37,884 bases of DNA from Sphingomonadales bacterium (GTDB taxonomy: Bacteria; Pseudomonadota; Alphaproteobacteria; Sphingomonadales; Sphingomonadaceae), in assembly GCA_013297725.1 (NCBI GenBank), contig JAAFIB010000021.1, positions 1 to 37,884 on the forward strand. The letters run 5' to 3'. Of the stretch, positions 21,362 through 37,388 are shown in pieces. The notes below the pieces were generated by a model, which was not told where the DNA came from, made no database searches, and was given only the letters and a program-made list of their open reading frames with translations. The position numbers were made by a program, and so were the translations under genes. Numbering within the stretch: the stretch's first letter is position 1; every line of letters begins with the position of its first letter.

Positions 21362-21468
21362 TTTTCAGACATCTCCTACTAGACCGCACGCGACCATAGC
21401 GCGCTTGAACAAAGCCCGTTCCGCTTATAGTGATGGTGCAGTTTACACGCGGAAAGGCCGAGGATCCG

Positions 21469-23457
21469 ATGCGACACGATGATGTGAGCGATCTGGGCTT
21501 GTCAAATCCTGCGGCATATCTTGATATAGGCATTACCGGACATCGCAGCGGCCATCCGGTCTTTTCTGCCAACCACGACCGTATCGCCGAGAGTTTAAGC
21601 CAACTGGTTATCATTATTGCGCAGCTGGCGCATCAGGAGGTGCAAACGACAGATGCCGGGAAAAGGGGGGGTATTCGGCTGCACTCTTTGCTTTCATACG
21701 GTACTGATTTGATGGGAGCGCATGCGGCGATTGCGCAGGATTGGGCGGTTCACGCACCTTTGCCGTTTGGCCGCGCGCTAAACCTTGCCATCAACGCCCA
21801 ACCATCAAGCGTTAGCGATATGGAGGCTTTGCTTAGCGGTGCGGCTGTATCGGACGCAGTCACAACCGAGCGTGCCGCTGAAATCACAGCGATTGCCGAT
21901 CAGGTCAATGTGTTCGAACTTGCCGAACAAGACATTGAGATAGAAGCACTTTACCGTGCGCATCTGACCGCGCCTGATGACGAGCCAGCAGAACAAGCGT
22001 TTGCCGCGATCTGTTCTGATCGCGCGGCAATGGCGGCGCGCGTTATGGTCGAACATTCCGACATGTTGATCGGCATCTGGGATGGTGTCACACGCGGCGC
22101 AATCGGCGGAACGCGCCACACAATAGAGGCAGCGCTGGAACACGGCATACCGGTTATCTGGATCGATGCGCGAAACCCGGAACGCTGGCATGTGCTGCGC
22201 GCAGCAGAAGAGCTAGCAGGCATCGCGCAGCGGCCATCAAGCACTCAACCTATAGACGCACTAAAAGCGGTCGTCACAAACGCTTTGCAACCATCGGGCG
22301 AAACAAAGCAAACCGCCCATGGCAACGAAAAGTGGCGCGACAAAAGCAGCCTGTTGTTTCAGGCTTACCGGCGCGTCGAATTGTTGTTTGGCGAACCCGG
22401 AAAGAGGCCTTTTAGAAGCCTGCGTCAAAACTACGAACACCCGCTTCAAATTGCCAGTGGAAGCGGTGCGCCTATGCTGGCCGCGGCAACCGCGCTGCCC
22501 GGCGTTGACCCTTTGATCCCTGCTCGTATCGCAAGGGATGTTCTGAAACCTTTTGCCTGGGCTGATGGAGTATCGACATGGCTTTCAGATGCCTATCGCG
22601 GCGGCATGGTCGCCAGCTTTTTCCTGTCCGCTTTTGCGATCATCGGCGGCATTGCCTATTTGCCCTTTGCTTCGGTTGACCAGAAATGGGGCTTTGCCGC
22701 GTTTGAATTTTTATTGCTGGCAATGATCGTTGCCATCTTTTTCACGGGAAAGCGCCTGCGCTGGCACGAACGCTGGTTCGAAACGCGCCGCATCGCCGAG
22801 TATTTTCGTCATTCGCCAATCTTGCTGTTGCTGGGCGCAGCAAGGCCCGCCGGCAGATGGCCCCGCGGCGCAGACGGGAACTGGCCCGAACATTATGTGC
22901 GCCACGCATTGCGCAGCATCGGCTTGCCGCGAATGAAAGTGACGCCCGCATTTCTACGCGGTGTGCTTGCGTTGATGCGCGACCACCATGTCGTTCCGCA
23001 AAGCCGCTATCACCGCGAAAAAGCGGACAGACTAAAACGCGCGCAGCATAATCTTGACCGCACATCGGAATTTCTGTTTTTGCTCGCGGTATTGTCTGTC
23101 GCCATTTATCTTGTGATCGAGTTCGGTGCCGGCATGGGATGGCTTGCGCACACTCTGCCCCATGATGTTGCAAAGACTTTCACGTTTTTGGGCGTGCTAT
23201 TCCCGACAATGGGCGGCGCATTTGCAGGGGTGCATTATTTTGGTGATTTCGAACGGTTCGCCGCAATCTCGGCAATTACTGCCGAGAAGCTGAGCGATGT
23301 GGAAACGCGGATCGGCTTTTTGCTGAACGCACCGGACAGCGAGATCACCTATACACGCGTATCTGGCCTGGCCCATGCGATTGACGATATCGTCGTTGCC
23401 GAAATTGAAAATTGGCAAGCGGTGTTTGGCGGAAAACATATCACTGTGCCTGTTTAG
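21469..23457 (+). CDS. SLOG-like nucleotide-binding protein fused to SLATT-like membrane effector (putative defence protein)
   Basis: A 662-aa fusion. The N-terminal about 18-240 looks like a Rossmann/SLOG module (DIGITGHR at 19-26; SDMLIGIWDG, GAIGGTRHTIEAALEHGIPV and IWID across 197-233). In SLOG proteins these segments bind nucleotide-derived ligands. The C-terminal half has four predicted TM helices in two pairs: about 380-400 with 408-426, and 534-553 with 571-590. The first pair is followed by KRLRWHERWFETRRIAEYFR, much like SLATT effectors. By analogy it could open a membrane pore on binding a signal nucleotide; this is inference. I use the ATG at 21469 (GAGG five bases upstream); the frame is open to 21430. 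It begins 107 bp after tRNA-Thr. Confidence 0.62.
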   Translation: MRHDDVSDLGLSNPAAYLDIGITGHRSGHPVFSANHDRIAESLSQLVIIIAQLAHQEVQTTDAGKRGGIRLHSLLSYGTDLMGAHAAIAQDWAVHAPLPFGRALNLAINAQPSSVSDMEALLSGAAVSDAVTTERAAEITAIADQVNVFELAEQDIEIEALYRAHLTAPDDEPAEQAFAAICSDRAAMAARVMVEHSDMLIGIWDGVTRGAIGGTRHTIEAALEHGIPVIWIDARNPERWHVLRAAEELAGIAQRPSSTQPIDALKAVVTNALQPSGETKQTAHGNEKWRDKSSLLFQAYRRVELLFGEPGKRPFRSLRQNYEHPLQIASGSGAPMLAAATALPGVDPLIPARIARDVLKPFAWADGVSTWLSDAYRGGMVASFFLSAFAIIGGIAYLPFASVDQKWGFAAFEFLLLAMIVAIFFTGKRLRWHERWFETRRIAEYFRHSPILLLLGAARPAGRWPRGADGNWPEHYVRHALRSIGLPRMKVTPAFLRGVLALMRDHHVVPQSRYHREKADRLKRAQHNLDRTSEFLFLLAVLSVAIYLVIEFGAGMGWLAHTLPHDVAKTFTFLGVLFPTMGGAFAGVHYFGDFERFAAISAITAEKLSDVETRIGFLLNAPDSEITYTRVSGLAHAIDDIVVAEIENWQAVFGGKHITVPV

Positions 23458-23798: not shown

Positions 23799-25061
23799 CT
23801 AGGGCGCCTTGTCATACATCCAGTTTCTGACATCCTTGGCCCGACCAACATCGTGCATCAATCCGGCATCATGCTTGGCAAAAATCAGCCTGTTCATCTG
23901 ATACATAAGCCAGCGGGGGTATTGCAGTATCGACCAATATCTGGTCGTCGCAGCGCCTGAAAAAGACGCTAAATGATGCAATGGCGGAAAGGCTCGCTTG
24001 ACGAACCTATGCGCTTTATTAGACACAGTCGCGTCGTCACCGAACTCAGCTTTTATACCGATTAATCCACGGTAATCAAAATCCTGAAGTGATAACAAAG
24101 CGGCGCTTTCGCGTTGATGGGGTAAAGGTGCAGCAATACTGCCAGAATAAAACTCCCGCCACGCATCGGAACCATGATAATAGGATGCCAGTTCGAGGAT
24201 CATGATGCACCCACGGGTCCAGTTACCTGCCTGTGCCATCTGCCAAAATATCGGCCAATCGATATCGGCGCTTTCAAGCAAAACAGCGATATCGCTAAAC
24301 GTTAGTGGGCCGTTGTTGAACTGATGATCATACGCAGCATGTACGATAAGGTGCAGCAACGTGTCTGTTGGCGACAAATATGGTATTCCATCCCGATACT
24401 GTCGGCGGGCCATTAAATACGGGACATCATCCAAAGTTTGCTGTGCCGAAGAACCCAAAGGCACCGTCAGCAGTCTCGTATGCACCTCTAAATGCAACCC
24501 TGTCTCGATGCAGCGCATAGGTGGTAGATGTTTGGCATCATACAGAGCACCCTCCAGCGGCATCGGAGAATCGCAATCGCGGACAAAGCCGTTTTTTTGA
24601 AGCAGCGCATAAACCGATAGAACCTTTGCTGGTTCGACAAGGATATCTATGTCACGCAACGGCCTTAAAGCAGGATCATCATACGCATATTGCGACAACC
24701 ACGCGCCCTTTAAGGCCGCAAAAGGAATGTTTGCTGTTTCCAAAATTGCGTTCAGACGAGCCAGTGTTTTGCGAAACGCCAGATACCGCAATGCAGCCTT
24801 TCGGTAAGCACTGGCCCATTGGTTAAGAACATCGGCAGGGACGGCATCACCCAATTCCAGCGCCTGTATGCGGCGGTGAAGCATTGGTCCAACACGGTGT
24901 TGTTTTGCTATCTTACACAGTGCGTACCAGTCCTTGTCCGCAAAAGACTTCAGTCGATCGCCTGTGACCGTCTGTGCGGTCGAGATCAGGTCTAGCAACA
25001 CATGCTTGATATCGTCTTCGGGTGCCGTAATCGGTGAGTGCACTCTATTTTCAACCATCAC
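23799..25061 (-). CDS. nucleotidyltransferase family protein (PF14907-like), lasso-peptide tailoring candidate
   Basis: A 420-aa protein with the features of the uncharacterised NTP_transf_5 family: LKG at 117-119, then LRPLRDIDILVEP at 132-144 with the paired aspartates (D137, D139) of a pol-beta-like nucleotidyltransferase, and LHLEVHTRLL at 189-198 for the third acidic/His strand. The C-terminal half is helical. Family members occur in lasso-peptide clusters that also contain an HPr-kinase-like enzyme. In the pseudomycoidin system, as I recall it, such an enzyme acts on the phosphorylated C-terminus. By analogy this one may transfer a nucleotide or sugar group to a phosphorylated Ser20. 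Its ATG overlaps the end of the oxygenase gene by 4 bp; it is the last gene of a three-gene leftward unit. Confidence 0.8.
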   Translation of the reverse strand: MMVENRVHSPITAPEDDIKHVLLDLISTAQTVTGDRLKSFADKDWYALCKIAKQHRVGPMLHRRIQALELGDAVPADVLNQWASAYRKAALRYLAFRKTLARLNAILETANIPFAALKGAWLSQYAYDDPALRPLRDIDILVEPAKVLSVYALLQKNGFVRDCDSPMPLEGALYDAKHLPPMRCIETGLHLEVHTRLLTVPLGSSAQQTLDDVPYLMARRQYRDGIPYLSPTDTLLHLIVHAAYDHQFNNGPLTFSDIAVLLESADIDWPIFWQMAQAGNWTRGCIMILELASYYHGSDAWREFYSGSIAAPLPHQRESAALLSLQDFDYRGLIGIKAEFGDDATVSNKAHRFVKRAFPPLHHLASFSGAATTRYWSILQYPRWLMYQMNRLIFAKHDAGLMHDVGRAKDVRNWMYDKAP

Positions 25062-26257
25062 TGTGGTCGCAAATCAAAGGCAACACATATCCGCTTTTCG
25101 GCCGTGCCGTGGGCATAAGTGCGATGATAAGTATGCGAGGGGAAGGTCAAAAGCAATCCGCTCTGCGGCCTGACAATCTGCTCGCCAAATTGCGTGCTAG
25201 CCTCTGCCCCGACTAGTTCTTCGGGCAGGCCGAACGCCAAGCATCCACTGTGGTCGCTGCCCTTTGCTATCGTGTCAGGAATCTGGACGTAATAGACACC
25301 GCTGAGCCAGCCAAATTGATGCACATGCCAAGTTTCAAAACCCTTGCTTTCGGTGATTACACACCAGTTACGAAGCAGAGCGTTTTCTGGACAAGCCGCG
25401 GCCCATTTATGGTCAGACTTTTTCAAGGCAGCGAGGTGCTTGTTCAATGATTTGGTGATTTGCGCGATCAGCGTTTTGAACAATGGCGTATCCGGTCGCG
25501 ACGGATTTTCAATACGCCAGGTCAATTCAGACGCGCTACCGTATCGTTCATACCGCATTGCAGGGTGGTTGACCAACTCTTGAGCCAACGCTGTGTTGAA
25601 CTCCTTGATCGTCGCCCAACCTTCGGGCGGTTGAAGCTGCTCGCTTTGGTGCAAACTATCAAAGCCCTCTGCAGTGCGAGCCGATGCAATATCGCCCGCC
25701 TGCGCAAAGGCAAGCACACGTGCGCCGAAAAGACGCGCATGGTCTGCACCGTGTTCTAACAACTCATCGGTCAGCTTTAGCAAAGCATCGGAACGCCCTT
25801 CGTCCAAAAGGATCGCCGCCAATCGTTTACAGGCATCTTTGTTGTGCGGATCAAGCTCCAACGCACGACGAAGCGTTACCTTTGCCAGTTCGGTATGGCC
25901 CAACCGGGCCTCACATTTACCGCGTGCAGCAAGAACTGCTGAGCGTTGCATATCATTTTCACTCAAAGCAAAAGCGTGATTTCCAGCCTTTAAAGCACGT
26001 TCGTTGTCGACGTTTCTTTCCCTGGAAATATACCCTTGGATCAGGAACATCTGGTCGCGATACCCGCGCTCTGGGATGGACTCGAGCAACATAATCGCTT
26101 CTTCGAATTGGTCATCCATCAACAACATACGGGCCAGCTGCCCGCAAATGGCAGGGCTTGGACTTTTTAGATGGGCCGTGCGCAGCAGGTCCAGTTCTTG
26201 CCCCAGTGTAAGCTGCTTTTCACCTTCAAGCTCAATGTGCGGGATCCTCAAAACCAT
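25058..26257 (-). CDS. TPR protein with 2OG-Fe(II) oxygenase domain, copy 1
   Basis: A 399-aa protein. Residues about 20-200 are TPR-like helical repeats (AVLAARGKCEARLGHTELAK, TLRRALELDPHNKDACKRLA). Residues 210-399 are a putative 2-oxoglutarate/Fe(II) oxygenase of the PF13759 type, with WHVHQFGWLSGVYYVQIP (metal-site candidates H311, H313), FPSHTYHRTYAH (H378) and KRICVAFDL (R389, the 2OG-binding candidate). Such enzymes hydroxylate amino-acid side chains. In this context the likely substrate is the lasso peptide, with TPRs for docking. It is paralogous to the gene at 29080-30285 across its whole length. It lies between the propeller gene and the nucleotidyltransferase in one transcription unit. 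Confidence 0.83.
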   Translation of the reverse strand: MVLRIPHIELEGEKQLTLGQELDLLRTAHLKSPSPAICGQLARMLLMDDQFEEAIMLLESIPERGYRDQMFLIQGYISRERNVDNERALKAGNHAFALSENDMQRSAVLAARGKCEARLGHTELAKVTLRRALELDPHNKDACKRLAAILLDEGRSDALLKLTDELLEHGADHARLFGARVLAFAQAGDIASARTAEGFDSLHQSEQLQPPEGWATIKEFNTALAQELVNHPAMRYERYGSASELTWRIENPSRPDTPLFKTLIAQITKSLNKHLAALKKSDHKWAAACPENALLRNWCVITESKGFETWHVHQFGWLSGVYYVQIPDTIAKGSDHSGCLAFGLPEELVGAEASTQFGEQIVRPQSGLLLTFPSHTYHRTYAHGTAEKRICVAFDLRPQ

Positions 26258-26312
26258 TATTCACGTTCACTAACATTCATCCGGCTAAACATTGCTGTCT
26301 ATCAGTAACAGC

Positions 26313-27230
26313 TCAAATGGCAACGATGTCGGCTGGTGGCCCGCCCAGTTCGATTTTAGCAAGCCTGTTCAATGCGCCATCCAATACAACGACGGCACCG
26401 GGAAGTGCATCACGGTTTTGACGCGGGCCAAAGCTGGATATGCCGACGATCATAGCATTCCCAGAACATGCAAGACCGCGAGTCATTCGGTCGAAATCGA
26501 TTTTTACCCGGCGCCCATCCGAGGTAAGAAGCTCGCCCGTCATCGATGCAGAACACCAGATCGTGCCGCTATCATCTGCAACAATATCATGGCAACAACG
26601 GCCATCCAGCGTCACCCGCTCTAACAGCTGCCATTCAGAATCAAGCCATGCCAGCTCGCTGCACTTTTCCGGTGAAACCTTACCATTGTGTAACATAATG
26701 GCGATGCGGTCGCCAATCTGTGCGACCGAGTTCATATGGAGATAAGCACCTGTCTTACCGGTCGCTGGAACAAGGGGAAACGGTGTTTTTACGTCAATAG
26801 GTTTGCCGTCGAGCGCATAGCGTAAAATCACTTGGTTGGCAGTATCGATGACGCACAACAGCTCGTTTACAATTCCGATTTGATGGCAACTCGCATCAAG
26901 GCCTTTTACCAGCACATCAGGTGCAGATAACTGCCCCTTGGCCATAGTCATTTTAACAATGCGGCCAAGCTTAAGCGTTCGATCTCGCTGAGCACAATTT
27001 TCAAAAAGATAGATGTCTGGACCATAAAGACAGATGCCAAAAAACCAACCATGCGCGACTAGCTTGGCACCTTTTAGATTGACGGCGTACAAACCGTTAT
27101 GCGTTGTAACTAACCAGTCATAGCCCCGGATGTCGGTGTCAACCAACCTGACATGATCGCGATTATAGCTGTCACGCACCAGTGCCTTTCGGATTGCACG
27201 GCGTGCATCAATTGCAAAAGCTGTGGCCAT
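26313..27230 (-). CDS. propeller-like hypothetical protein in lasso locus (305 aa)
   Basis: No family named with confidence. No signal peptide or TM helix. The sequence shows a run of repeated four-strand-like units with the rhythm of a beta-propeller: YDWLVTTHNGLYAVNLKGAK, IYLFENCAQRDRTLKLGRIV, LDASCHQIGIVNELLCVIDTANQVIL, GDRIAIMLHNGKV, WLDSEWQLLERVTLDGRCCH, DDSGTIWCSASMTGELLTSD. It is the first gene of the leftward unit propeller-oxygenase-nucleotidyltransferase and is divergent from the cyclase gene, with 29 bp between. It might bind the peptide or scaffold the tailoring enzymes. Its linkage to lasso genes is the only functional clue. Confidence 0.6.
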   Translation of the reverse strand: MATAFAIDARRAIRKALVRDSYNRDHVRLVDTDIRGYDWLVTTHNGLYAVNLKGAKLVAHGWFFGICLYGPDIYLFENCAQRDRTLKLGRIVKMTMAKGQLSAPDVLVKGLDASCHQIGIVNELLCVIDTANQVILRYALDGKPIDVKTPFPLVPATGKTGAYLHMNSVAQIGDRIAIMLHNGKVSPEKCSELAWLDSEWQLLERVTLDGRCCHDIVADDSGTIWCSASMTGELLTSDGRRVKIDFDRMTRGLACSGNAMIVGISSFGPRQNRDALPGAVVVLDGALNRLAKIELGGPPADIVAI

Positions 27231-27259
27231 AATCTTCGCCTAGCGCCCTTGCAGATACG

Positions 27260-29077
27260 ATGAAACAAAAAAGGCTTTCACCTGTGTGTGGTCAATGCCA
27301 TGCCCCGGCGATGGCGAATATGATGTCACAAGCTATACGGCCGAGCGGGATTTACGGGCTGTTCAACCTCGACGGCGCGCCTGTTGAGGCCAGGGATACC
27401 GAATTGCTTGGGCTGCCAAGAACAACAGAGGCAAGATCATGGCTGGTCGCCGGGCATGATCCACGACTGCCATTTGCCGTTTCCGATAACGAAAGTCCGC
27501 TAGGATTCACAGTGTTGGTCGGTGAAGTAGAGGAAGCCGGGACACTGGCCGCTTCTTTGGGTCTGCCGAATAATAGCAGCCCTGCTGCCCTTGCCGAAGC
27601 CGCTTTGATGCGTTTTGGCGGCGAACTACCCTCAGTCCTTATAGGTGAGTGGTCGTTATTACATAGGGCATCAAATGGCACGCTTACATTGATGCTGTCT
27701 GCGGCAAAGCGTGATCGCTTGCACTATACTATTCGGGGCAACCGGGTTGCAGTTGCTTCGAATCTGTTTGCATTGGCTGGGCTCGACTGGGTCAACAATA
27801 CAGTTGATGAGGCGGGCCTGCTGTTTCCGATGGGCCGTGCTGCTGTACGCGCCGGACGCGGTGATTCAACAATGCTTAAATCTGTATATCAACTTAGCGC
27901 GGGCTCTACTGCGATTATCCAGCTAGATGGTTCTGTTACAAAAACTACTGCGCATACTCTAGTCGAACAACCGCGGTGGCATGGCAGTTACGCAGATGCT
28001 GTGGTGGAAACAAAGGCTTTGATGCGCCACATCATGCGGACAAAGCTAGCACGCCACAGCAAAGTCGCATCCATGCTTAGTGGTGGGCTTGATTCATCAT
28101 TGCTGACCTGGCTGTGTTCGGAATCAGGCACAGACTTACTCGCTCTGACATCTGTTTCCCCACCGGATAGCGGAATTGCCGACGAAGCGCACTTTGCAGA
28201 CAGTGTTGCCAGAACATTAGGAATAGCAAGCCAGCATGTCTTCCCTGATTTTGATAACAACATCTATCGTCCCAAAGATGCCATATTAACCGGAGGTAGC
28301 GGACCTATTTTATCGAACCGCCACTGTTTGACTGATACATTTCAGTCTGCCGCACGTGCAGCGGGCGCAACGCTTATTGTTGATGGAACTTACGGCGAAA
28401 TGAGCATCACTGCGCGACTGCCAAAGCCCAGCCCATTGCGCCAGTTGCGCACATTTGCACGGCATATGCTGAGTGCCAATCCGTTTGTTCAACGCAGCAC
28501 GGTTGAAACGACACCTTTTCATGTCCGACTGGCGCCTCACCGCTTGGCTAAACTACCAGAGCAGATCTTGGCTGCCTGTTCAGATGTATCGGTCAGCGCC
28601 GTTTCGATGAACCCTAATGGCTTATTTGGTTATATGAAAGGCAGCGAAAAAGCGCTGACATTGCAGAATGAATTTTATCCAGGGGCAATTCGCGTGACGC
28701 ACCCCTATCGCGACATCCGGCTGCTGCGGCTTTTTGCCGGATTCCCTATACAGATGTTGACTGAAAATGGTGCAGATCGAGGCATTGGCCGTGCCATGAT
28801 GGATGGGCATTTGCCCGATATGATCCGTTTACGTAACAGCGGCATGCCCGCGTCACCCGATCACCTTCCTCGGCTCAAACGCCAAGCAAGTGCCGCCCGG
28901 CAGCGTATTCCCCTATTCCGCAAAGCCGAGCTTGATGATTGGTTGGATTTAGATTGGCTTGATCTGGCTTTGGAAAGCGTAGCTGCGCGCGGCCCGACAA
29001 ATCATAGTGAGGCCAATGAGGTGCAGTTAACGGCAATCGCAGCAGAATTTTTGCTTTGGTGGCGATCACAAAACTGA
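27260..29077 (+). CDS. lasso peptide cyclase (asparagine-synthetase-like, C protein)
   Basis: Predicted to activate an Asp side chain of the core with ATP and close the isopeptide ring onto the new N-terminus. An N-terminal glutaminase-like domain (SGIYGLFNLDG, about 29-39; RDRLHYTI) lacks the catalytic N-terminal cysteine of true asparagine synthetase, as lasso cyclases do. The synthetase domain holds the pyrophosphate loop SGGLDSS at 274-280, then SDIRLLR-like C-terminal segments (HPYRDIRLLRLFAGFP). Length 605 aa is normal. The ATG at 27260 is used, though M18, M21 or M22 would give a start nearer the family's usual N-terminus. Its stop lies 2 bp from the stop of the convergent second oxygenase gene. 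Confidence 0.88.
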   Translation: MKQKRLSPVCGQCHAPAMANMMSQAIRPSGIYGLFNLDGAPVEARDTELLGLPRTTEARSWLVAGHDPRLPFAVSDNESPLGFTVLVGEVEEAGTLAASLGLPNNSSPAALAEAALMRFGGELPSVLIGEWSLLHRASNGTLTLMLSAAKRDRLHYTIRGNRVAVASNLFALAGLDWVNNTVDEAGLLFPMGRAAVRAGRGDSTMLKSVYQLSAGSTAIIQLDGSVTKTTAHTLVEQPRWHGSYADAVVETKALMRHIMRTKLARHSKVASMLSGGLDSSLLTWLCSESGTDLLALTSVSPPDSGIADEAHFADSVARTLGIASQHVFPDFDNNIYRPKDAILTGGSGPILSNRHCLTDTFQSAARAAGATLIVDGTYGEMSITARLPKPSPLRQLRTFARHMLSANPFVQRSTVETTPFHVRLAPHRLAKLPEQILAACSDVSVSAVSMNPNGLFGYMKGSEKALTLQNEFYPGAIRVTHPYRDIRLLRLFAGFPIQMLTENGADRGIGRAMMDGHLPDMIRLRNSGMPASPDHLPRLKRQASAARQRIPLFRKAELDDWLDLDWLDLALESVAARGPTNHSEANEVQLTAIAAEFLLWWRSQN

Positions 29078-29079
29078 TG

Positions 29080-30285
29080 CTAAGCTGGGCAAATATCAAA
29101 GGCGATGCACATCCGGCGACCCTCTGCATTATGCGGAAACGTGCGATGATAAACATGGGATGGAAATAGAGTTAGTAACCCAGGTTTTGGTCGAACCAGT
29201 GTTTGTCCAAAATTGTGCGCTGCAACCTCGCCGATTAGCCCTGAGGGAAGCCCGAATGCTAAACAGCCAGCTTCCCCATCGCCATTCGTCACCGCATCAG
29301 GTACTTCGACATAATAGCCGCCGCTCATCCAACCTTGCGGATGCATATGCCATTGTTCATAGCCATGGCCTTCTGTAATGACACACCAGCTTCGCAATAT
29401 TGCCGATTGTGGACGGACATCGGTCCAAAAATGATCATGTTTCGCACATGTCCCTGCATGACGTTCAGCCAAGCTCGCAATTTCAGCGAGTAAGGCTCTG
29501 ACTGCGGGGGTGGTCCCGGTTGCGGGATGCTCAACGCGCCACGTCTTTTCAGACGCTGTGCCATAGCGTTCAAAACGTATGCTGGAATTAGTGTTGATTT
29601 CGGAAACAAGAGCAGCATTGAAGGTCGCAAGATCAGACCAACCGGCTGGAGTTTCAATCAAACCTTCATAGATGAAACTTGCATAGCAAGCCAGTTGCTG
29701 TGCCGATTTATAATCTCCAGACGCGGCAAAGGCCATCGTGCGAGCAGCCAAAAGTCTGGAATGCCCGATCCCATTTTGTTTTAGATCGTCGGTCAGCTTG
29801 ATAACCTGCAGAGGTTTGTTTTGACGAAACAATTCCATTGCAAGGCGTTTGAAGGCAGCGACATTAGAGATATCCAACTCAAGCGCTTTACGTAAAAAAG
29901 AAAGTGCCTTTTCAGTATCGTTTCGGCGCAAATGTGCCTTAGCCAATTCTGCCAGCAGATAGGATTTTTGCGTTTCATTCAATTCAAGCGACAAGGCCCT
30001 TTCGGCAACTTGCAACGCCATTAAAGTATCGCCGGCTTCGTTGCGGGCAAAATAAGCTGCGATCAACGCTGTTTGTACGCCGTAATCATCGCCAAGCGGG
30101 GCGTGCGCAGTTAACATTTTAATACTGTCAGAAAACATATCTAACGAGTTTAGCAACCGTGCAAGGCGCATTCTGAGTTGGGTCGAAGCTGGATTTTGGG
30201 CAACAGCTCCGCGCAAAAGCTCAAGTTCTGTTGACGGCGTAAGCTCTCTAGACGGCTCAATCTTGATGTTTACATGACGCGTCAT
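29080..30285 (-). CDS. TPR protein with 2OG-Fe(II) oxygenase domain, copy 2
   Basis: A 401-aa paralogue of the oxygenase at 25058-26257. TPR-like repeats at about 20-200 (LLAELAKAHLRRNDTEKALS, FLRKALELDISNVAAFKRLA) are followed by the oxygenase domain with RYGTASEKTWRVEHP, WHMHPQGWMSGGYYVEVP (H313, H315), FPSHVYHRTFPH (H380) and RRMCIAFDI (R391). All candidate metal and cosubstrate residues are kept, so both copies look active. It is divergent from the precursor gene with about 160 bp of shared control region, so it may be co-regulated with the peptide. Two copies suggest two hydroxylation sites or a division of substrate, which is inference. Confidence 0.83.
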   Translation of the reverse strand: MTRHVNIKIEPSRELTPSTELELLRGAVAQNPASTQLRMRLARLLNSLDMFSDSIKMLTAHAPLGDDYGVQTALIAAYFARNEAGDTLMALQVAERALSLELNETQKSYLLAELAKAHLRRNDTEKALSFLRKALELDISNVAAFKRLAMELFRQNKPLQVIKLTDDLKQNGIGHSRLLAARTMAFAASGDYKSAQQLACYASFIYEGLIETPAGWSDLATFNAALVSEINTNSSIRFERYGTASEKTWRVEHPATGTTPAVRALLAEIASLAERHAGTCAKHDHFWTDVRPQSAILRSWCVITEGHGYEQWHMHPQGWMSGGYYVEVPDAVTNGDGEAGCLAFGLPSGLIGEVAAHNFGQTLVRPKPGLLTLFPSHVYHRTFPHNAEGRRMCIAFDICPA

Positions 30286-30395
30286 CCCGCATTGATTTAC
30301 ACATCGCAGGGCGGCGGTCTACGGAAATGATTGAACATGTTGCAGCGACGTCGCCGACAATTTTTGCCGAGACATAACCATATTATTACCTTATG

Positions 30396-30418
30396 ACACG
30401 CGCAGAATGCACACGCGC
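30396..30418. promoter_or_regulatory. paired direct repeat ACACGCGC before the precursor gene (possible operator)
   Basis: ACACGCGC occurs at 30396-30403 and 30411-30418, 15 bp apart. The second copy is the core of a small palindrome GCACACGCGCTGTGC (30409-30423). The pair sits 30-52 bp before the precursor ATG in the divergent control region, where a regulator could act. No regulator gene is in the locus. Confidence 0.4.
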
Positions 30419-30447
30419 TGTGCGTAGATTTATGTAAGAGTGGATAT

Positions 30448-30582
30448 ATGTCGGAAGTTGTAAAACGCGAAACCTGGATCGAGCCAGAAATCCGTGAACT
30501 GGATGTTCAAGAAACCAATGCAGACGAAGGCACAGGTGCTGACGTTGGCGGTGATCCTTTTCCGGATTGCCAGCGATCCTAA
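30448..30582 (+). CDS. lasso peptide precursor, paeninodin-like (44 aa)
   Basis: Leader MSEVVKRETWIEPEIRELDV then QETN (1-24); predicted core ADEGTGADVGGDPFPDCQRS (25-44). The leader has W10-x2-P13-x-I15-x2-L18-D19-V20-x2-T23, the recognition pattern bound by PqqD-like B1 proteins, with Thr at -2 of the cut. The core would start at Ala25 (Ala1), with Asp32 at position 8 as ring acceptor, a 12-residue tail with Pro-Phe-Pro, one Cys (position 17), and a C-terminal Ser, the residue phosphorylated in paeninodin. AAGAG lies seven bases before the ATG. The gene stands between the oxygenase and the ABC exporter. The family is clear; the exact ring is an inference. Confidence 0.85.
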   Translation: MSEVVKRETWIEPEIRELDVQETNADEGTGADVGGDPFPDCQRS

Positions 30583-30890
30583 AGTTAGAGCAGCAGGGAT
30601 AGGTTGAAGCTAGCTGCGGGCCGAATCATATTCCAAGTTTTATTCGTCAGTTGCAAATCTGCCATTCAAGCCAGCAGAATGTTTCAGGCATCGTATTTGA
30701 AATGCGCGACTGCGCGGTGTCACTTTGAATGCGGGCCTTGTGAATGCGGGCTGTGTATCTCTGTCGATTGGCCGCGGTTCAACTCTTGCATCGGCCAACG
30801 GAAAATCCGATTTGACACTTCTTACTCTATCGTTCTTGCTTTCGGATCGCCGATAGAGAACTTGGTTGCAGCGCCACGGAGCTTGAAAAT
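30583..30890. other. gap between precursor and exporter genes
   Basis: These 308 bases contain a 96-codon TTG-started frame (30604-30894) with seven cysteines (FECGPCECGLC) but no ribosome site or recognised family; I do not call it. A direct repeat TGAATGCGGGC at 30726-30736 and 30741-30751 (15-bp period) produces part of that Cys pattern. No strong terminator follows the precursor, so read-through into the exporter is possible. Confidence 0.5.
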
Positions 30891-32618
30891 TTGACTGATA
30901 ACCAAGGTCCAGTGCACTCCAGTAAGGCAACGATGCGCGACCTAATGCGTAGGATGCCGCCGGGGCAATTGGTTTTGCTAGCCCTGCTGATGACGGCAGT
31001 TGCAATGACCGACGGTATTGGCATCGTTATGCTGGTTCCACTTTTAACCGCTATGAACGCGGGCAATTTAGGCGGCATCGCTAAGGATGCGTTAGGCCAG
31101 CTTGGACTGCCCAATAGCCTTACCCTATTGCTCGTTATGTTCGTCTTGTTGGTTGTGATCCGAACGTCGCTCGTTTTTACGCTGGGCCAAATGAGGGCAA
31201 AGTTGCAGCACCAGCTTGTCGATCGTTTACGGCAGCAATGCTACAAAGGGCTTTTGGCTGCGGAATGGCGGTGGTTATCAAACCAGCGCGCGGCCGATCA
31301 TAATGCCATTTTGACAATTAATGTAGCGTCGGTTGGGGTTGGCTTTGACCAGATGATCAACTTGTCAGCCAGCGCATTGATGCTTTCTGCTTATGTGATT
31401 GCAGCATTATATTTGTCATGGCCCACAACAGCGATAGCCATCGGGTTAGGTGCTATCACCTTGTTGTTCATGAAGAGATTCCGTGGCCGTGCGACGATTT
31501 TTGGTGGCGTTTTAAACAACGCCAATCGTGATCTGCACCGTCATGTGCAGCAAGGCTTGTCATCGATCAGATTGGCCAAGATTTTTGGCAAAGAAGCTCT
31601 GCTTGACTCAGGGTTCGCTGCAGCTATCGAAGCCGTCCGCGAGACCAAAATGTCGTATTCACGCGACGCTGCAGCAGGACATGCCATCATCCAAGTCGGC
31701 GCTTCCGTCTTGCTCGCGATCTTGACCTATGTGGCCGTAGTGCTTTGGCAAATGCCCTTGACAGTCTTGCTGCCGCTTTTGCTGGTCTTCATCCGGCTAG
31801 CACCGATGCTGGCCGCGATCCAGCAAGGATGGAATCATGCTCTTCATGCTTTGCCCACGTTGCAAGAGGTTAACGCGCTAATTGACGAGGCGGAGAGAAA
31901 TGCCGAGCCCATGGCCGCCGCGCAGATACTTAATCTGGAACAGGCGATCACTTTTTCCGACGTCTCCTTTGTCTATTCTGCGCGTGAAATACCGTCATTG
32001 CGGAATGTCACAGTCTCGATCCCAGCCAACACTACCGCGGTAGTCTTTGGCGAATCCGGATCAGGGAAAAGCACATTTGCCGATTTAGTCATGGGCTTGC
32101 TGCAACCCGATTCCGGCTCCATTCGGATTGATGACACCCCATTAGAGGGTGCATATCGCAGAGCTTGGCGAGACAGGGTCGCCTATGTTGAACAGTCACC
32201 GGTGTTGTTGCACGATAGCATCCGCTCAAATCTGTTATGGGGCAAAGCAGACGCGACTGATGCTGAACTCGTTGACGCACTGAAACAAGCATCTGCCGAA
32301 TTTGTTTTGTCTCAGTCCGGCGGCCTTGATTCGATGGTCGGCGATGGCGGAATGCGGCTATCCGGCGGTGAGCGGCAACGCATCACTTTGGCGCGCGCGT
32401 TACTGCGGCGCCCCGCCTTGCTGATTCTTGATGAAGCCACCAGCGCGCTCGATCCTGAAAATGCTGCGGCGGTGCGAAGGGCCGTGGCAGCTCTTCATGG
32501 CAGCATGACGATCATCCTGATTGGACATCAATTGTCTATGCGCGATGGTTGCGACCAAATCATCGAATTGGATAATGGCAGTGTAGTAGAAAGGTCGATG
32601 TCCGCACCCCAAAACTAA
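30891..32618 (+). CDS. ABC transporter, fused permease-ATPase (lasso peptide exporter, D protein)
   Basis: A 575-aa half-transporter of the inner membrane, working as a homodimer. The N-terminal TM domain has about six helices (LVLLALLMTAVAMTDGIGIV, LTLLLVMFVLLVVIRTSLVF, ASVLLAILTYVAVVLW). The ATPase domain carries Walker A GESGSGKS (387-394), signature LSGGERQR (490-497) and Walker B LLILDEATSALD. No N-terminal C39 peptidase is present, as expected because B2 removes the leader. It probably exports the finished lasso peptide to the periplasm and so gives self-immunity. The TTG start (GGAG nine bases upstream) is likely; an ATG at 30933 is the alternative. Its stop overlaps that of the convergent B2 gene by 4 bp. 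Confidence 0.88.
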   Translation: MTDNQGPVHSSKATMRDLMRRMPPGQLVLLALLMTAVAMTDGIGIVMLVPLLTAMNAGNLGGIAKDALGQLGLPNSLTLLLVMFVLLVVIRTSLVFTLGQMRAKLQHQLVDRLRQQCYKGLLAAEWRWLSNQRAADHNAILTINVASVGVGFDQMINLSASALMLSAYVIAALYLSWPTTAIAIGLGAITLLFMKRFRGRATIFGGVLNNANRDLHRHVQQGLSSIRLAKIFGKEALLDSGFAAAIEAVRETKMSYSRDAAAGHAIIQVGASVLLAILTYVAVVLWQMPLTVLLPLLLVFIRLAPMLAAIQQGWNHALHALPTLQEVNALIDEAERNAEPMAAAQILNLEQAITFSDVSFVYSAREIPSLRNVTVSIPANTTAVVFGESGSGKSTFADLVMGLLQPDSGSIRIDDTPLEGAYRRAWRDRVAYVEQSPVLLHDSIRSNLLWGKADATDAELVDALKQASAEFVLSQSGGLDSMVGDGGMRLSGGERQRITLARALLRRPALLILDEATSALDPENAAAVRRAVAALHGSMTIILIGHQLSMRDGCDQIIELDNGSVVERSMSAPQN

Positions 32619-33037
32619 AAGCGGACTACCTCTTCAAACTTCCCCATTTCGCCTTTGCCTGTGACCACAACCGATCCGGCGACCAACCACGCGTGTGCCA
32701 GTATGGCCGTTTCCGCCGGATTTACGCCTAAAGACAACTCGGAGCTATATCCACGGCGCGACAATGCCTTTTTACCTGCAATACCGCAGATCAAGCACTT
32801 TGAACGCTTTGGCAGTATAAACGACACCAAATCAATAATGCGGCGAATATCGCGTGCCAATTGCACTGGGGGGGTAAGAGCAAGAGGATCGTTCTTCAAC
32901 CCCGCGCTATAGCGTTTAAATGTTACAAATCGAACCGTCCACGCCGCCAACGCAATTTGGACGAGCAGCTCCAGCCCCAGAAATATAAGCCGGATTATTC
33001 GAATGCTCTTGCGCAGGATTTCTGGTTGGCCATTCAT
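32615..33037 (-). CDS. lasso peptide leader peptidase B2 (transglutaminase-like)
   Basis: A 140-aa protein of the Transglut_core3 (PF13471) B2 family, expected to cut the leader after Asn24. A hydrophobic N-terminal helix (IRLIFLGLELLVQIALAAW, about 14-33) may tether it to the membrane. The catalytic part shows KCLICGIAGKKALSRRGYSS (Cys81 the likely nucleophile, Cys84 next to it), LSLGVNP and AHAWLVAGSVVVTGKGE (His115). The residue after HAWL is Val where family members I recall have Glu, and no Asp follows, so the third catalytic residue is uncertain. It is on the opposite strand from B1 (PqqD-like) and both neighbours, giving it its own promoter in the 105-bp gap before the first kinase gene. 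Confidence 0.85.
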   Translation of the reverse strand: MNGQPEILRKSIRIIRLIFLGLELLVQIALAAWTVRFVTFKRYSAGLKNDPLALTPPVQLARDIRRIIDLVSFILPKRSKCLICGIAGKKALSRRGYSSELSLGVNPAETAILAHAWLVAGSVVVTGKGEMGKFEEVVRF

Positions 33038-33142
33038 AAGGGGTTCTTAGCCAGATTTTAGAGTAGCAGGAAGTGTCACGGTGAGAACCGTAACAACAGC
33101 TTACTCGACAATCGCTTTTTGACCAGCGATAGGAGCCGGGTC

Positions 33143-34021
33143 ATGACAGCACTTTCAGGCTATCGCGCTTACGGGCTGAATATCGCATCGGAATTCGAAA
33201 TTCCCGGTGGGATTCGGTCTGAGCAGCTGGTGCATGATGCAGACATTATCATTCGCCGTGGCATCGCAGCCATTGGCATAGCGGATGCAGTAAATGGTCC
33301 TTATACCCGCAATGGCAGCGCGTTGCTGTTCGATGCCACTGGCGTTGCGCGCTATTTTGCGCCGTCACCAGACCAGCTTTTGGTTGAGCCTTATCAAGGC
33401 TCAGACTCCCGCGAAGTTTGCGAACTGCTAATAGCAACAGCTCTACCAATGCTGATGTGGATGCGTGGCGGCATCGTTTTGCATGCTGCGGGAATAGCGC
33501 CAGTAGGAAGGAATGAAGCCATCGCGATTGCTGGGCCAACTGGTATCGGCAAATCCACCTTAGCCGCAGGTTTAATGCAATCCGGGGCAAAATTGGTTGG
33601 CGACGATAGTCTGTGCCTGACAATGCGCGACAACGAACCGGTTGTCAGCGGGCTTTCGGCGATGTTGTTCCAATCAAATGGTCCCAACAGTCTACGAACC
33701 GCGACAGAAATTCCACTGGACTTACAAGTGGACAATACCCGTTTAAGCGCGCTTGTCATACTTCGTATCACCGATGGAGAAGCGCCAAAAGCGCAACGAA
33801 GATTACAGAGCGCAGAAGCAATTGAAGCAATTTTGCAGAACCGGCATCGACCGAAAATTCCGGCGATATTGGGGCTGGAAGCTGCTGTATTCCAGCAATG
33901 CATATTGCATTGTCGCACTTTGCCGATATACGAACTCACGATGAAACGTGGCGACATAGCTGGCTCGCAGCAGCATATTGCCTCGATATTCTCTGATCAT
34001 TTCAGGAGTGTGCGACAATGA
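33143..34021 (+). CDS. HPr-kinase-like protein 1 (lasso peptide kinase candidate)
   Basis: A 292-aa HprK/PadeK-type P-loop kinase. Family features: LHAAGI (H114), Walker A GPTGIGKSTLA (131-141), LVGDDSLCL (152-159) with the acidic pair, and a C-terminal helical part ending HFRSVRQ. It differs from the second kinase by lacking the PGxPxIRLF segment after the acidic pair (it reads SGLSAMLFQSNG instead). It may therefore be inactive, regulatory, or have a different acceptor. The ATG at 33143 has AGGAG eight bases upstream; a TTG at 33119 is open but poor. It opens an operon with B1 and kinase 2, each joined by 4-bp ATGA overlaps. Confidence 0.78.
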   Translation: MTALSGYRAYGLNIASEFEIPGGIRSEQLVHDADIIIRRGIAAIGIADAVNGPYTRNGSALLFDATGVARYFAPSPDQLLVEPYQGSDSREVCELLIATALPMLMWMRGGIVLHAAGIAPVGRNEAIAIAGPTGIGKSTLAAGLMQSGAKLVGDDSLCLTMRDNEPVVSGLSAMLFQSNGPNSLRTATEIPLDLQVDNTRLSALVILRITDGEAPKAQRRLQSAEAIEAILQNRHRPKIPAILGLEAAVFQQCILHCRTLPIYELTMKRGDIAGSQQHIASIFSDHFRSVRQ

Positions 34022-34290
34022 ATGCGACAACATGGCAGCGCAGTGACCATTGGGTCGGGACTCAGATCGACGATGCCTTTGTTATGCTGGATTTCGAAAG
34101 CGGCATTTATGTATCGCTAAACAAAACCGCGACCGACGTTTGGAATGCTCTTGAACAACCGTGCAGCACGGAAAACATCGTTGGTGTTTTAACTGAACGG
34201 TACGACGTGAGCGACGAACAATGTGCAGCGGCGGTCGATCGTGTTTTGTCGGATTTTCAGGCAAAGAAGCTTATCCAGCCAGTTGAATGA
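34018..34290 (+). CDS. lasso peptide leader-binding protein B1 (PqqD-like RRE)
   Basis: A 90-aa stand-alone RiPP recognition element. The PqqD fold is visible: strands DAFVMLDFESGIYVSLNKTA, then ATDVWNALEQPCSTENIVGV, LTERYDV and CAAAVDRVLSDFQAKKLIQP. It binds the W..P.I..LDV part of the leader and delivers the precursor to B2 and the cyclase. It lies between the two kinase genes and overlaps both by 4 bp, suggesting fixed stoichiometry of the three proteins and perhaps that the kinases use it for substrate recognition. Confidence 0.9.
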   Translation: MNATTWQRSDHWVGTQIDDAFVMLDFESGIYVSLNKTATDVWNALEQPCSTENIVGVLTERYDVSDEQCAAAVDRVLSDFQAKKLIQPVE

Positions 34291-35198
34291 ATTCAGAACC
34301 TCTGCACTATCAGGCGCGATCCTTTGGTCTGTTGTGGCAGTCTGATATTAAGATAGAACATTTTGCAGACGCATTTGGTAGTGACAGCAACGCTGACATT
34401 ATCGTCAGCGAAACGAACCATTTGATTGAGCGCCAACCGATCCACAGCATCAATCGCGGTATTATTTATGCCGATGGCTTCCGGTTCACTTGGAACGATA
34501 TCGCAACGTTCGATATGTTTGATGGCAACCGCGTCGAATATTGTCCGGGTGCAAATTGGACGGGCGATTTGCCATGGCCATTTTATAGCACCGTGACCGC
34601 ATTGTTGCTGGCGTGGCGCGGATGCATACCCTTTCATGGCTCTGCAATCTCCGTAGACGGCCAAAGCGTCTTGATTTGCGGAGAAAGCGGTGCCGGCAAA
34701 TCATCCCTGACGGCAGCGTTGATTTCACAAGGGGCACAGTTCATCTCTGACGATCTGTCTGTTGTGGTTCCGGATAAAGCGCAGTCTTGTTTTAACTTGG
34801 TCCCGGGACGTCCTGGAATCCGTCTTTTCCCGGCAGTAGGGCAGTGGTTTTTTAGCAATGATGTGCATCCGCTGCATGACGATCCAAGAGACAAGGTTAT
34901 TGCGGTTCCGCAAAGTTACATCGATGGGAATGCTGTTCCACTTCGTCATGTGGTTTTTCTATCCAGTTCGGAAAATGCACTGTCCGAAATCGACCGGTTC
35001 ATTCGGCTGCGAAAGCAATTATTTCGTCCAAATTGGCTAGACAAGCTTCCCGGCATTGCCGCAATCCGTGTGGCGGTGCGCGATATATCGGTGTCTGCGC
35101 ACGTTAGTATTGAACCCGTAATTGGTGAAACAAATCAAGCTGGTTTGCGGGCACGCGCACAGGCGATCATCGATAGGGTGCAAAGCGTGGCCGTTTAG
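34287..35198 (+). CDS. HPr-kinase-like protein 2 (PadeK-like lasso peptide kinase)
   Basis: A 303-aa kinase with all expected landmarks: PFHGSAI (115-121, H117), Walker A CGESGAGKSSL (131-141), ISDDLSVV (153-160) and LVPGRPGIRLFPAVGQ (171-186), the last a segment typical of HprK-like lasso kinases. In the paeninodin system the homologue phosphorylates the C-terminal Ser of the precursor. The precursor here also ends in Ser, so this is the better candidate for that reaction. It follows B1 with a 4-bp overlap and ends the kinase-B1-kinase operon, 96 bp before the TonB receptor gene. Confidence 0.82.
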   Translation: MNSEPLHYQARSFGLLWQSDIKIEHFADAFGSDSNADIIVSETNHLIERQPIHSINRGIIYADGFRFTWNDIATFDMFDGNRVEYCPGANWTGDLPWPFYSTVTALLLAWRGCIPFHGSAISVDGQSVLICGESGAGKSSLTAALISQGAQFISDDLSVVVPDKAQSCFNLVPGRPGIRLFPAVGQWFFSNDVHPLHDDPRDKVIAVPQSYIDGNAVPLRHVVFLSSSENALSEIDRFIRLRKQLFRPNWLDKLPGIAAIRVAVRDISVSAHVSIEPVIGETNQAGLRARAQAIIDRVQSVAV

Positions 35199-35294
35199 GC
35201 CATTCGTCGAACCCTGTGCCACTTTATCGAACACAACTTCTGTCATTCGCCCTTTTGCGTAGGCAAAACACAATAAGTATATCGGGGAGGTGGC

Positions 35295-37388
35295 ATGCGT
35301 TGGCATTTGGCGGGGACATTAATGTTGGCTGGGCTTTCCCCTCAGCTCGCATTGGCCCAAGAAGCAGCAACGGTTTCAGCCAGCGAAGGCAGCCGCGTAT
35401 TTACGCCTGACTTTTTCACAGGATTCAGCCCCGTTACTGCACTCGACATGGTGCAGCGCATCCCCGGTTTTTCCATCGAAGGCAGCCGGGAACGTCGCGG
35501 GTTTGGCGAAAATGCAGGCAATGTCTTGATCGATGGTGACAGGCCTTCGACCAAATCGGATGACATCTTCACGCTGCTTGGACGCATCCCGGCAAGTGAA
35601 GTTGAACGCATCGAACTGAACGAGCAAGCCGGGGCTGACGGCGAAGCGCAGGGCAAAGGACAAGTGGTCAATGTCATCCGCAAAGCCTCCGCCAAAATCA
35701 GCGGCACATACGCCGCCAATTTGCTAATCGGAACACGTTACGGCGTTACGCCATTCGCCAGCGGCTCCGCCACTTTGCGGCGCGGCGCAACGAGCTATGA
35801 GTTAAACTTCTCGTCCTTTTCAGAACGTCTGCGCGGCTTTGGCCCGGAAGATTTCAAAAATGGAGCCGCGCAGCTTATTGAGCGCCGCCGCTATGAAGGA
35901 TTTGGCGCTCTAGACGAGTATTCGGTGGGCGGTGCGATCAAGACCCGCAGCGGCGATGTAAAGATCAACGCAAATGGCAAGTTTACAGCGCGCAACGGCA
36001 CAGATCGGCGGCGGGGTATTTATACCAACGCAGCCGAAGTGCAGATCGGCACGGAGCGGTTGTTCAGCGATGCGCCAAAGCATGATATTGCCTTTGAAGT
36101 TGGCGGTGACATCGAATTCCCGATCGCCGCAAAGCTAAACAGCAAACTGGTTGCCCTTTTCCGTTCGAGCAGAGAAAGTTCGAGCAATTTCATCGAGACA
36201 AGCCGTGTCGGCCAGCCGGTTTCATTGTTTGAAACACGCAACCGCAACCGCCCAGCCGAAGCGGTGTTTCGCGCACAGAACGACTGGAGCGGGCTTGCGG
36301 GGCACGCGATCCAATTTGGCGCAGAATTCGCGTATAACAAACTCGATGCAAGGTTTTCTGCTGCTAGCTCGACAGGCGGCGCGGTGACGCAATTCCCTGC
36401 ATCAAATGTACAGGTAAAAGAAACGCGGTTCGAACCGTTCCTGTCCGATGTCTGGACTGTCAGCCCATCATGGAAACTTGAGGGCGGCGCGATCATGGAG
36501 TTTTCAAAGCTAACGCTAAGAGGTGATAGCAATGCGCGGCGCAGTTTTCAGTTTATCAAACCGCGGCTGATCGCAACTTGGGCTATTGATAAAGCAACTA
36601 CTCTCGAATTCCGTGCCGAACGGCAGGTTGCACAGCTGAACTTCAACGATTTTGCGACATCGGTGGATCTGGGGCAGAGTAATCAGGTTGACGCAGGCAA
36701 TCAGGATCTGGTGCCAGAAAAAACTAACAGCTTTTCAGCTTTGATCCGCCATAAATTTCTGGATCGCGGAAGCATTCAGTTTGTCGCATCCTATCAAGCG
36801 GTCAGCGACACGCAGGATCTTGTGCTTATCACCACCCGCGACGCCACTGGAAACATCACCGGCCGCTTTGACGGCGCGGGCAACATCGGTTCCAGCAAGC
36901 GGTGGAATGGTGAGTTGGAAATCACTCTGCCATTTGACTGGCTGACAAAGGCGGTGGGCATCACGGGTATGGAACTGAAATATGTCGGCCATTATCATGA
37001 CAGCCGCGTTGATGATCCGATCACAGGTCTGACACGTCGCATATCCTACCGCCCGTTATGGCATCAGAACTGGGATTTTCGTCATGACATTCCAAGCATC
37101 GGAATTGTCTGGGGCGTCAACTGGGCTGAACGTGCGGCAGGCAAAGCCTATTTCTTTAATCAATACCGGCTTGAAAACTATGGTTCCAACATCGGCTTTT
37201 TTGTCGAGTATAATAAATTCAAGCTGGGCACCTTGCGGCTGGAAGCAATCGGCATCGGCGGCCAAAAATTATTCCGCAACCGGTTTGTCTATAATGATAC
37301 GCGAGCGAGCAACGTGCTGACTCAGGTTATCAACCGCGAACGCTCGCTTGATCCGCGCATTCAGCTGGCTTTCTCGGGCAAGTTTTAG
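35295..37388 (+). CDS. TonB-dependent outer-membrane receptor linked to the lasso locus
   Basis: A 697-aa outer-membrane receptor. A signal peptide (MRWHLAGTLMLAGLSPQLALA) is followed by a plug domain about 45-140 (FSPVTALDMVQRIPGFSIEG, GNVLIDGDRPSTKSDDIFTL, ASEVERIELNEQAGADGEAQ) and a 22-strand-type barrel ending IQLAFSGKF with terminal Phe. There is no N-terminal FecA signalling extension, matching the absence of FecI/FecR genes. It could import the lasso peptide, perhaps loaded with metal, or be a receptor whose ligand the peptide resembles. An excellent ribosome site (GGGGAGG) precedes the ATG. A strong shared terminator follows. Confidence 0.85.
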   Translation: MRWHLAGTLMLAGLSPQLALAQEAATVSASEGSRVFTPDFFTGFSPVTALDMVQRIPGFSIEGSRERRGFGENAGNVLIDGDRPSTKSDDIFTLLGRIPASEVERIELNEQAGADGEAQGKGQVVNVIRKASAKISGTYAANLLIGTRYGVTPFASGSATLRRGATSYELNFSSFSERLRGFGPEDFKNGAAQLIERRRYEGFGALDEYSVGGAIKTRSGDVKINANGKFTARNGTDRRRGIYTNAAEVQIGTERLFSDAPKHDIAFEVGGDIEFPIAAKLNSKLVALFRSSRESSSNFIETSRVGQPVSLFETRNRNRPAEAVFRAQNDWSGLAGHAIQFGAEFAYNKLDARFSAASSTGGAVTQFPASNVQVKETRFEPFLSDVWTVSPSWKLEGGAIMEFSKLTLRGDSNARRSFQFIKPRLIATWAIDKATTLEFRAERQVAQLNFNDFATSVDLGQSNQVDAGNQDLVPEKTNSFSALIRHKFLDRGSIQFVASYQAVSDTQDLVLITTRDATGNITGRFDGAGNIGSSKRWNGELEITLPFDWLTKAVGITGMELKYVGHYHDSRVDDPITGLTRRISYRPLWHQNWDFRHDIPSIGIVWGVNWAERAAGKAYFFNQYRLENYGSNIGFFVEYNKFKLGTLRLEAIGIGGQKLFRNRFVYNDTRASNVLTQVINRERSLDPRIQLAFSGKF

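Follow-up and report, generated by a model that had tools for sequence, protein, structure and literature searches.

What would a sphingomonad make with a lasso-peptide locus that carries two kinases, two oxygenases and a predicted propeller protein in addition to the usual enzymes, and do these genes belong together at all? The question is raised by a stretch of 37,884 nucleotides from a Sphingomonadales bacterium (GCA_013297725.1, contig JAAFIB010000021.1; hereafter the window), in which the locus occupies positions 23799-37388. An earlier note on this DNA had listed the genes and proposed a peptide that is phosphorylated, hydroxylated and perhaps nucleotidylated or glycosylated. Every gene on that list was recovered in its place, mostly by profile searches, with AlphaFold2 serving for the propeller, and the set is a genuine, conserved lasso-peptide family locus, since its recurrence in other genomes counters a chance assembly. 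Gene content, conservation, motifs and predicted folds were established directly; from these we infer the chemical steps, their order and the residues concerned, and a phosphorylated and hydroxylated lasso peptide is the probable product, if only just.

The core enzymes place the locus among lasso-peptide clusters. The cyclase, an Asn-synthetase-like lasso macrolactam synthetase (27260-29077, plus strand), scored above the cut-off of PF00733 (E 8e-13) and matched the NCBIfam lasso cyclase model NF033535 with E 5.8e-13 and 48 bits against a cut-off of 525, which suggests that standard models may miss such clusters. Its SGGLDSS motif is invariant in the three sequences aligned (3/3), and its true start may lie near 27320, because the homologues aligned with it start some 20 residues further on. 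The B2 leader peptidase (32615-33037, minus strand) is a lasso B2 by its score of 61.9 bits on NF033537 (lasso_biosyn_B2; cut-off 33), with Cys81 and His115 invariant in 5/5 aligned sequences. B1, the PqqD-type recognition element of ribosomally synthesised and post-translationally modified peptides (RiPPs), lies at 34018-34290 on the plus strand and reached 64.9 bits on PF05402 (cut-off 23.4). The ABC exporter D (30891-32618) and a precursor of 44 residues (30448-30582), a member of an 11-member precursor family, are both on the plus strand.

The cyclase was searched for in 396 genomes of the order Sphingomonadales, and its clade (E 1e-100 or better) was present in seven; among 199 genomes of the bacterium's own family it was found in the window genome and one other. 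A further contig search gave two more loci. The sample analysed below comprises nine genomes, ten cyclase loci (the window, L003 from S. hylomeconis, L004 from a Sphingomonadales metagenome-assembled genome (MAG), which contains L002, and L023-L029, of which L025 and L026 belong to the single genome G481) and 11 precursors; all of these genomes come from one order and so are not independent samples. The propeller was found in seven of the 396 genomes, identical to the seven of the cyclase clade, and at 10/10 cyclase loci. The oxygenase was present at 9/10 loci and in 9/9 genomes, so that the co-occurrence on which the earlier note had staked its reading held for both. B1 and the K1 kinase clade were likewise found in 9/9 genomes, B2 in 9/9 and the K2 clade in 8/9, while the ABC exporter adjoined cluster genes in three of the nine (window, L029 and L049). 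The K1 copy of S. hylomeconis is on a separate contig, as is a group formed by K1, K2, B1 and B2 in the MAG.

The precursors are similarly conserved. Lasso precursors carry a Thr at position -2 of the leader and an acidic ring acceptor at core position 7-9, and the window precursor has both, with a predicted core of ADEGTGADVGGDPFPDCQRS, a ring from A1 to D8 and a C-terminal Ser20. Its leader follows the pattern W..P...LDV..ET, which we take to resemble paeninodin-type leaders. Asp8, the predicted acceptor, and Asp(-5), counted from the end of the core, are invariant in 11/11 cores, and the spacing from Thr(-2) to Asp8 is constant in 11/11 precursors, as are the leader Trp, Pro and Thr(-2) themselves. 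Core residue 1 is Ala in 7/11 precursors and otherwise Gln, Thr, Asn or Gly; Cys(-4) is found in 10/11 cores (Ser in L003) and a C-terminal Ser in 10/11, the window included. The outlier in this last respect is the precursor at L028:10774-10926 (G341), which ends DCNHV. A third, solitary precursor of the family was seen in G481 at L063:9997-10131 (core AQPGGGADVGGNPFPDCQRS), on a contig other than those of both cyclase loci; around it no cluster gene was matched except for ABC-type ATPase homology, and it is presumably matured in trans. In the cores of L026 and L063, Ser20 is the sole Ser or Thr.

The two HprK-like kinases are encoded on the plus strand on either side of B1 (K1, 33119-34021; K2, 34287-35198), whose gene overlaps each kinase gene by 4 bp; translation of K1 may in fact begin at an ATG near 33143. 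Both have an intact His/GKS/DD motif, the His-Lys-Asp-Asp set of HprK-like kinases, and K1 falls below the Pfam cut-off (23.2 versus 33.3). They form separate clades (support 100/100 and 100/99). A K2 profile run over whole genomes gave 207-445 bits in eight of them and at best 80 in G341, the genome of L028; the second local kinase at L028 has Glu-Asp in place of Asp-Asp and falls outside the K2 clade. G341, which has no K2-clade kinase, is also the genome whose precursor has no C-terminal Ser (Val stands there), and this coincidence points to K2 as the kinase of the C-terminal Ser, with K1 left to another task. The claim that the peptide is phosphorylated is well supported by the kinase motif together with the prevalence of the C-terminal Ser. 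On the best reading of these sequences, K2 would phosphorylate that Ser and a conserved Asp would be hydroxylated. An HprK-type lasso kinase need not act at the C-terminus: BsfK is reported to act on Ser3 of the core, with help from B1 (PMC10368454).

Both oxygenases are encoded on the minus strand, and each joins a TPR domain to a domain dependent on Fe(II) and 2-oxoglutarate (2OG): oxy1 at 25058-26257 (PF13759, E 4.1e-19) and oxy2 at 29080-30285 (E 1.5e-19), the latter divergent from the precursor gene. They share 42% identity. In the 396 genomes the oxygenase (E 1e-40 or better) was found in ten, namely all seven with the cyclase and three without it (G422, G083 and G388); G341 has a second, divergent copy. 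The model of oxy2 (pLDDT 94.5) was compared by Foldseek, and the Asp/Asn beta-hydroxylase AspH filled the first ten rows, with an overall TM score of about 0.34 and about 14% identity. Hydroxylation, as the earlier note had it, is thus supported by enzyme family and fold, and the target residue is a matter of interpretation.

The propeller protein (26313-27230, minus strand; 305 residues) had no Pfam match at 0.01. AlphaFold2 gave a confident six-bladed beta-propeller (pLDDT 89.7), which bears out its provisional description as propeller-like, and His116, His165, His214 and Arg251 are invariant. DUF4915 (PF16261) was rejected as a family assignment, at 12.8 bits against a cut-off of 35, with weak matches in 4/10 propellers and a best E of 0.028. 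Its gene is divergent from that of the cyclase, with start codons 30 bp apart in the window and 21-69 bp apart at 7/10 loci; at the other three the distance is about 5 kb. Relatives of the propeller adjoin HprK-like kinases in another family, and two of the three genomes concerned have no cyclase match, which ties the protein to kinase RiPPs rather than to lasso folding. It is therefore suggestive of an unrecognised component of phosphorylated RiPPs, and the propeller family may be a new RiPP component. One such locus, L062:8441-13767 (G756), holds two HprK-like kinases, PqqD, a propeller, GT2, a pyruvyl-transferase-like protein and a 57-residue open reading frame (ORF) with W..P.L and a C-terminal Ser, with no cyclase match within the 20 kb read; from its sequence it is apparently a phosphorylated RiPP locus.

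These observations can be assembled into a putative pathway. The B1 recognition element would hold the leader, and K2 would phosphorylate Ser20 of the linear precursor, on which the TPR/2OG oxygenases would also hydroxylate a conserved Asp at the beta carbon, most likely Asp16 beside Cys17. B2 would then cleave after Asn(-1), the cyclase would close an 8-residue ring between the residue-1 amine and Asp8, and the ABC exporter would remove the product. K1 may put a second phosphate elsewhere or extend the first, and a role like that of PsmN in pseudomycoidin, which decorates the phosphate, may fall to the nucleotidyltransferase. The propeller could belong, in the cytoplasm, to the kinase part of the pathway, with its conserved His3/Arg site serving to bind or process the phosphorylated peptide. 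A bolder version, which we regard as a long shot, makes the propeller a new metal-dependent RiPP tailoring enzyme whose three-His/Arg centre acts on the phosphoserine made by the kinase, and has K1 phosphorylate the hydroxyl placed on Asp by the oxygenase, giving phospho-beta-hydroxyaspartate; elimination by the propeller at the C-terminal phosphoserine could yield dehydroalanine, an amide or a thioether joining Cys(-4) to Ser(-1). Action of K1 on hydroxy-Asp would explain why a second kinase is kept in every genome even though the L026 and L063 cores hold only Ser20, and the thioether route, if true, would join lasso and lanthipeptide chemistry.

The alternative that survives best keeps the same pathway but has the oxygenases hydroxylate Pro, or Asn/Asp12, instead of Asp16. 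Outside the oxygenases' own Pfam family, prolyl hydroxylases (PHD2 and the P4H of P. putida) match their fold as closely as other 2OG enzymes do, Pro3 is present in 9/11 cores, and Asn/Asp12 is found in 4/5 loci with two oxygenases. However, no Pro is invariant and the window core is without Pro3; a single oxygenase accompanies Asn12 at the loci L003 and L026, and at L028 there are two although position 12 is neither Asn nor Asp, so that we consider this possibility unlikely, though deserving of attention. It is quite improbable that the locus is an ordinary paeninodin-type one and that its oxygenases, second kinase and propeller, as mere neighbours or degenerate additions, play no part in processing the peptide. 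The C-terminal Ser and HprK-like kinase are indeed as in paeninodin, and lasso-type loci of this simpler kind occur in the same order: distant cyclases (E 2.7e-24, the second copy of G341, and 5.8e-21, G423) were taken as controls for other lasso types, and B1 and one kinase are present at both control loci, L030 and L031, with neither propeller nor oxygenase found in the 16-17 kb read at each. The added genes, however, recur with the cyclase in the counts given above. In G235 the pathway is split over two places of one contig some 300 kb apart (L027 and L049), yet the oxygenase, which makes L027 the exception among the cyclase loci, is kept beside K1, K2, B1, the ABC exporter and B2; and the two loci of G481 each have their own precursor, cyclase, oxygenase and propeller. 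That the product is a kinase-type RiPP whose macrolactam is unthreaded, or one that does not go through classical lasso macrocyclisation, is very improbable, for although it fits with the low cyclase score, with L062, where the 20 kb read gave no cyclase match, and with the LPP family (phosphorylated RiPPs that have HprK, a recognition element and an NTP transferase and are for the most part unlinked to lasso enzymes; PMC13381572), B2 passes the lasso cut-off and the Thr(-2)-to-Asp8 spacing is fixed.

Several points weigh against the phosphorylated and hydroxylated lasso peptide that we favour. It is drawn from sequences and predicted folds, and threading is assumed, given a cyclase score that falls far short of the NCBIfam lasso cut-off. 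The prevalence of Pro3 counts here too, and in a domain-level structure comparison AspH was absent among the 50 matches listed, with prolyl hydroxylases present. B2 lies off-cluster in 5/9 genomes, where it was found only as weaker matches (91-106 bits) away from the cyclase that may belong to other lasso loci. The oxygenase family exists without this cyclase in 3/396 genomes, in surroundings (L054-L056) that gave no kinase, B1 or cyclase matches at E 1e-5. The link between K2 and the C-terminal Ser comes from one natural loss. The invariance of the leader Trp, Pro and Thr(-2) arises partly by selection, because these residues belonged to the search pattern that served to recognise most precursors or to parse them; Asp8 and the C-terminal residues did not.

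Two genes at the ends of the window locus stand apart from the conserved set. The PF14907 nucleotidyltransferase-like protein (23799-25061, minus strand; E 3.2e-54, 184.6 bits versus a cut-off of 31.2) ends a minus-strand run with oxy1 and the propeller, in which its gene overlaps oxy1 by 4 bp and 55 bp separate oxy1 from the propeller. Counted at cyclase loci only, strong homologues (485-544 bits) were found at 3/10, the window included, and L028 has a weak homologue (40 bits); the protein does co-occur with the lasso genes, then, as an optional rather than a constant member, and the suggested nucleotidylation or glycosylation is possible at loci having it. A TonB-receptor-like barrel (35295-37388, plus strand) starts 96 bp past K2 and is a doubtful member, since among the stretches read it was found at 1/10 cyclase loci, that of the window; it is left out of the conserved set. 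By eye, a TonB-receptor-like ORF also adjoins the oxygenase relative of L056. An ORF of 675 residues at 21430-23457 adjoins the cluster and has no Pfam match at 0.001.

In summary, the locus defines a conserved lasso family that combines kinases of two clades with AspH-like hydroxylases and with propellers of a new family. The division of labour between K1 and K2, hydroxylation and phosphorylation in series on one residue, and the role of the propeller are all testable now. No description of the combined two-kinase, oxygenase and propeller lasso set was found in the literature, in which paeninodin and pseudomycoidin are known to us through reviews.

Isopeptidase-type lasso clusters (sphingopyxin, astexin) occur in sphingomonad and other alphaproteobacterial hosts. 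They resemble the window in having a TonB transporter. Pfam searches took in all 12 proteins of the cluster and 10 other ORFs of the window, but neither its remaining ORFs nor the rest of the genome; within that scope the transglutaminase-like domain of B2 was the one peptidase family found, and no isopeptidase was seen. Whereas in those clusters a propeller forms the N-terminal domain of an enzyme resembling prolyl oligopeptidase, here it is a free protein. AspH is similar in having a TPR domain followed by a 2OG domain, a likeness of working only; it belongs to a Pfam family other than PF13759. The LPP RiPPs share the HprK kinase, recognition element, NTP transferase and an MsbA-like exporter; they are reported from Bacillota, use an SpI peptidase and are linked to lasso enzymes in only about one third of cases (Nat Commun 2026, PMC13381572), and the word 'propeller' is absent from the main text of that paper. 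Within lasso clusters proper, CanE of canucin A is also an Fe/2OG enzyme, likened by description and not by sequence; as summarised in two reviews, it beta-hydroxylates Asp14 on the linear precursor with the help of B1 (PMC9266682; PMC8498205), whereas the enzymes here are TPR-fused and often two. Pseudomycoidin (PsmK/PsmN) likewise pairs a kinase with a protein annotated as a nucleotidyltransferase, PsmN being likened by annotation and not by sequence; the same summaries have PsmN adding a hexose on the phosphate of the C-terminal Ser, while in the present family such a protein is confined to a minority of loci, and the set is enlarged by oxygenases, a second kinase and a propeller. Closest is the paeninodin type (PadeK, ThcoK, SyanK), whose kinases phosphorylate a C-terminal Ser according to these reviews, and which shares the split B1/B2, the HprK-like kinase with His-Lys-Asp-Asp and the C-terminal Ser; it has one kinase clade, and the family described here has two, together with oxygenases and a propeller.
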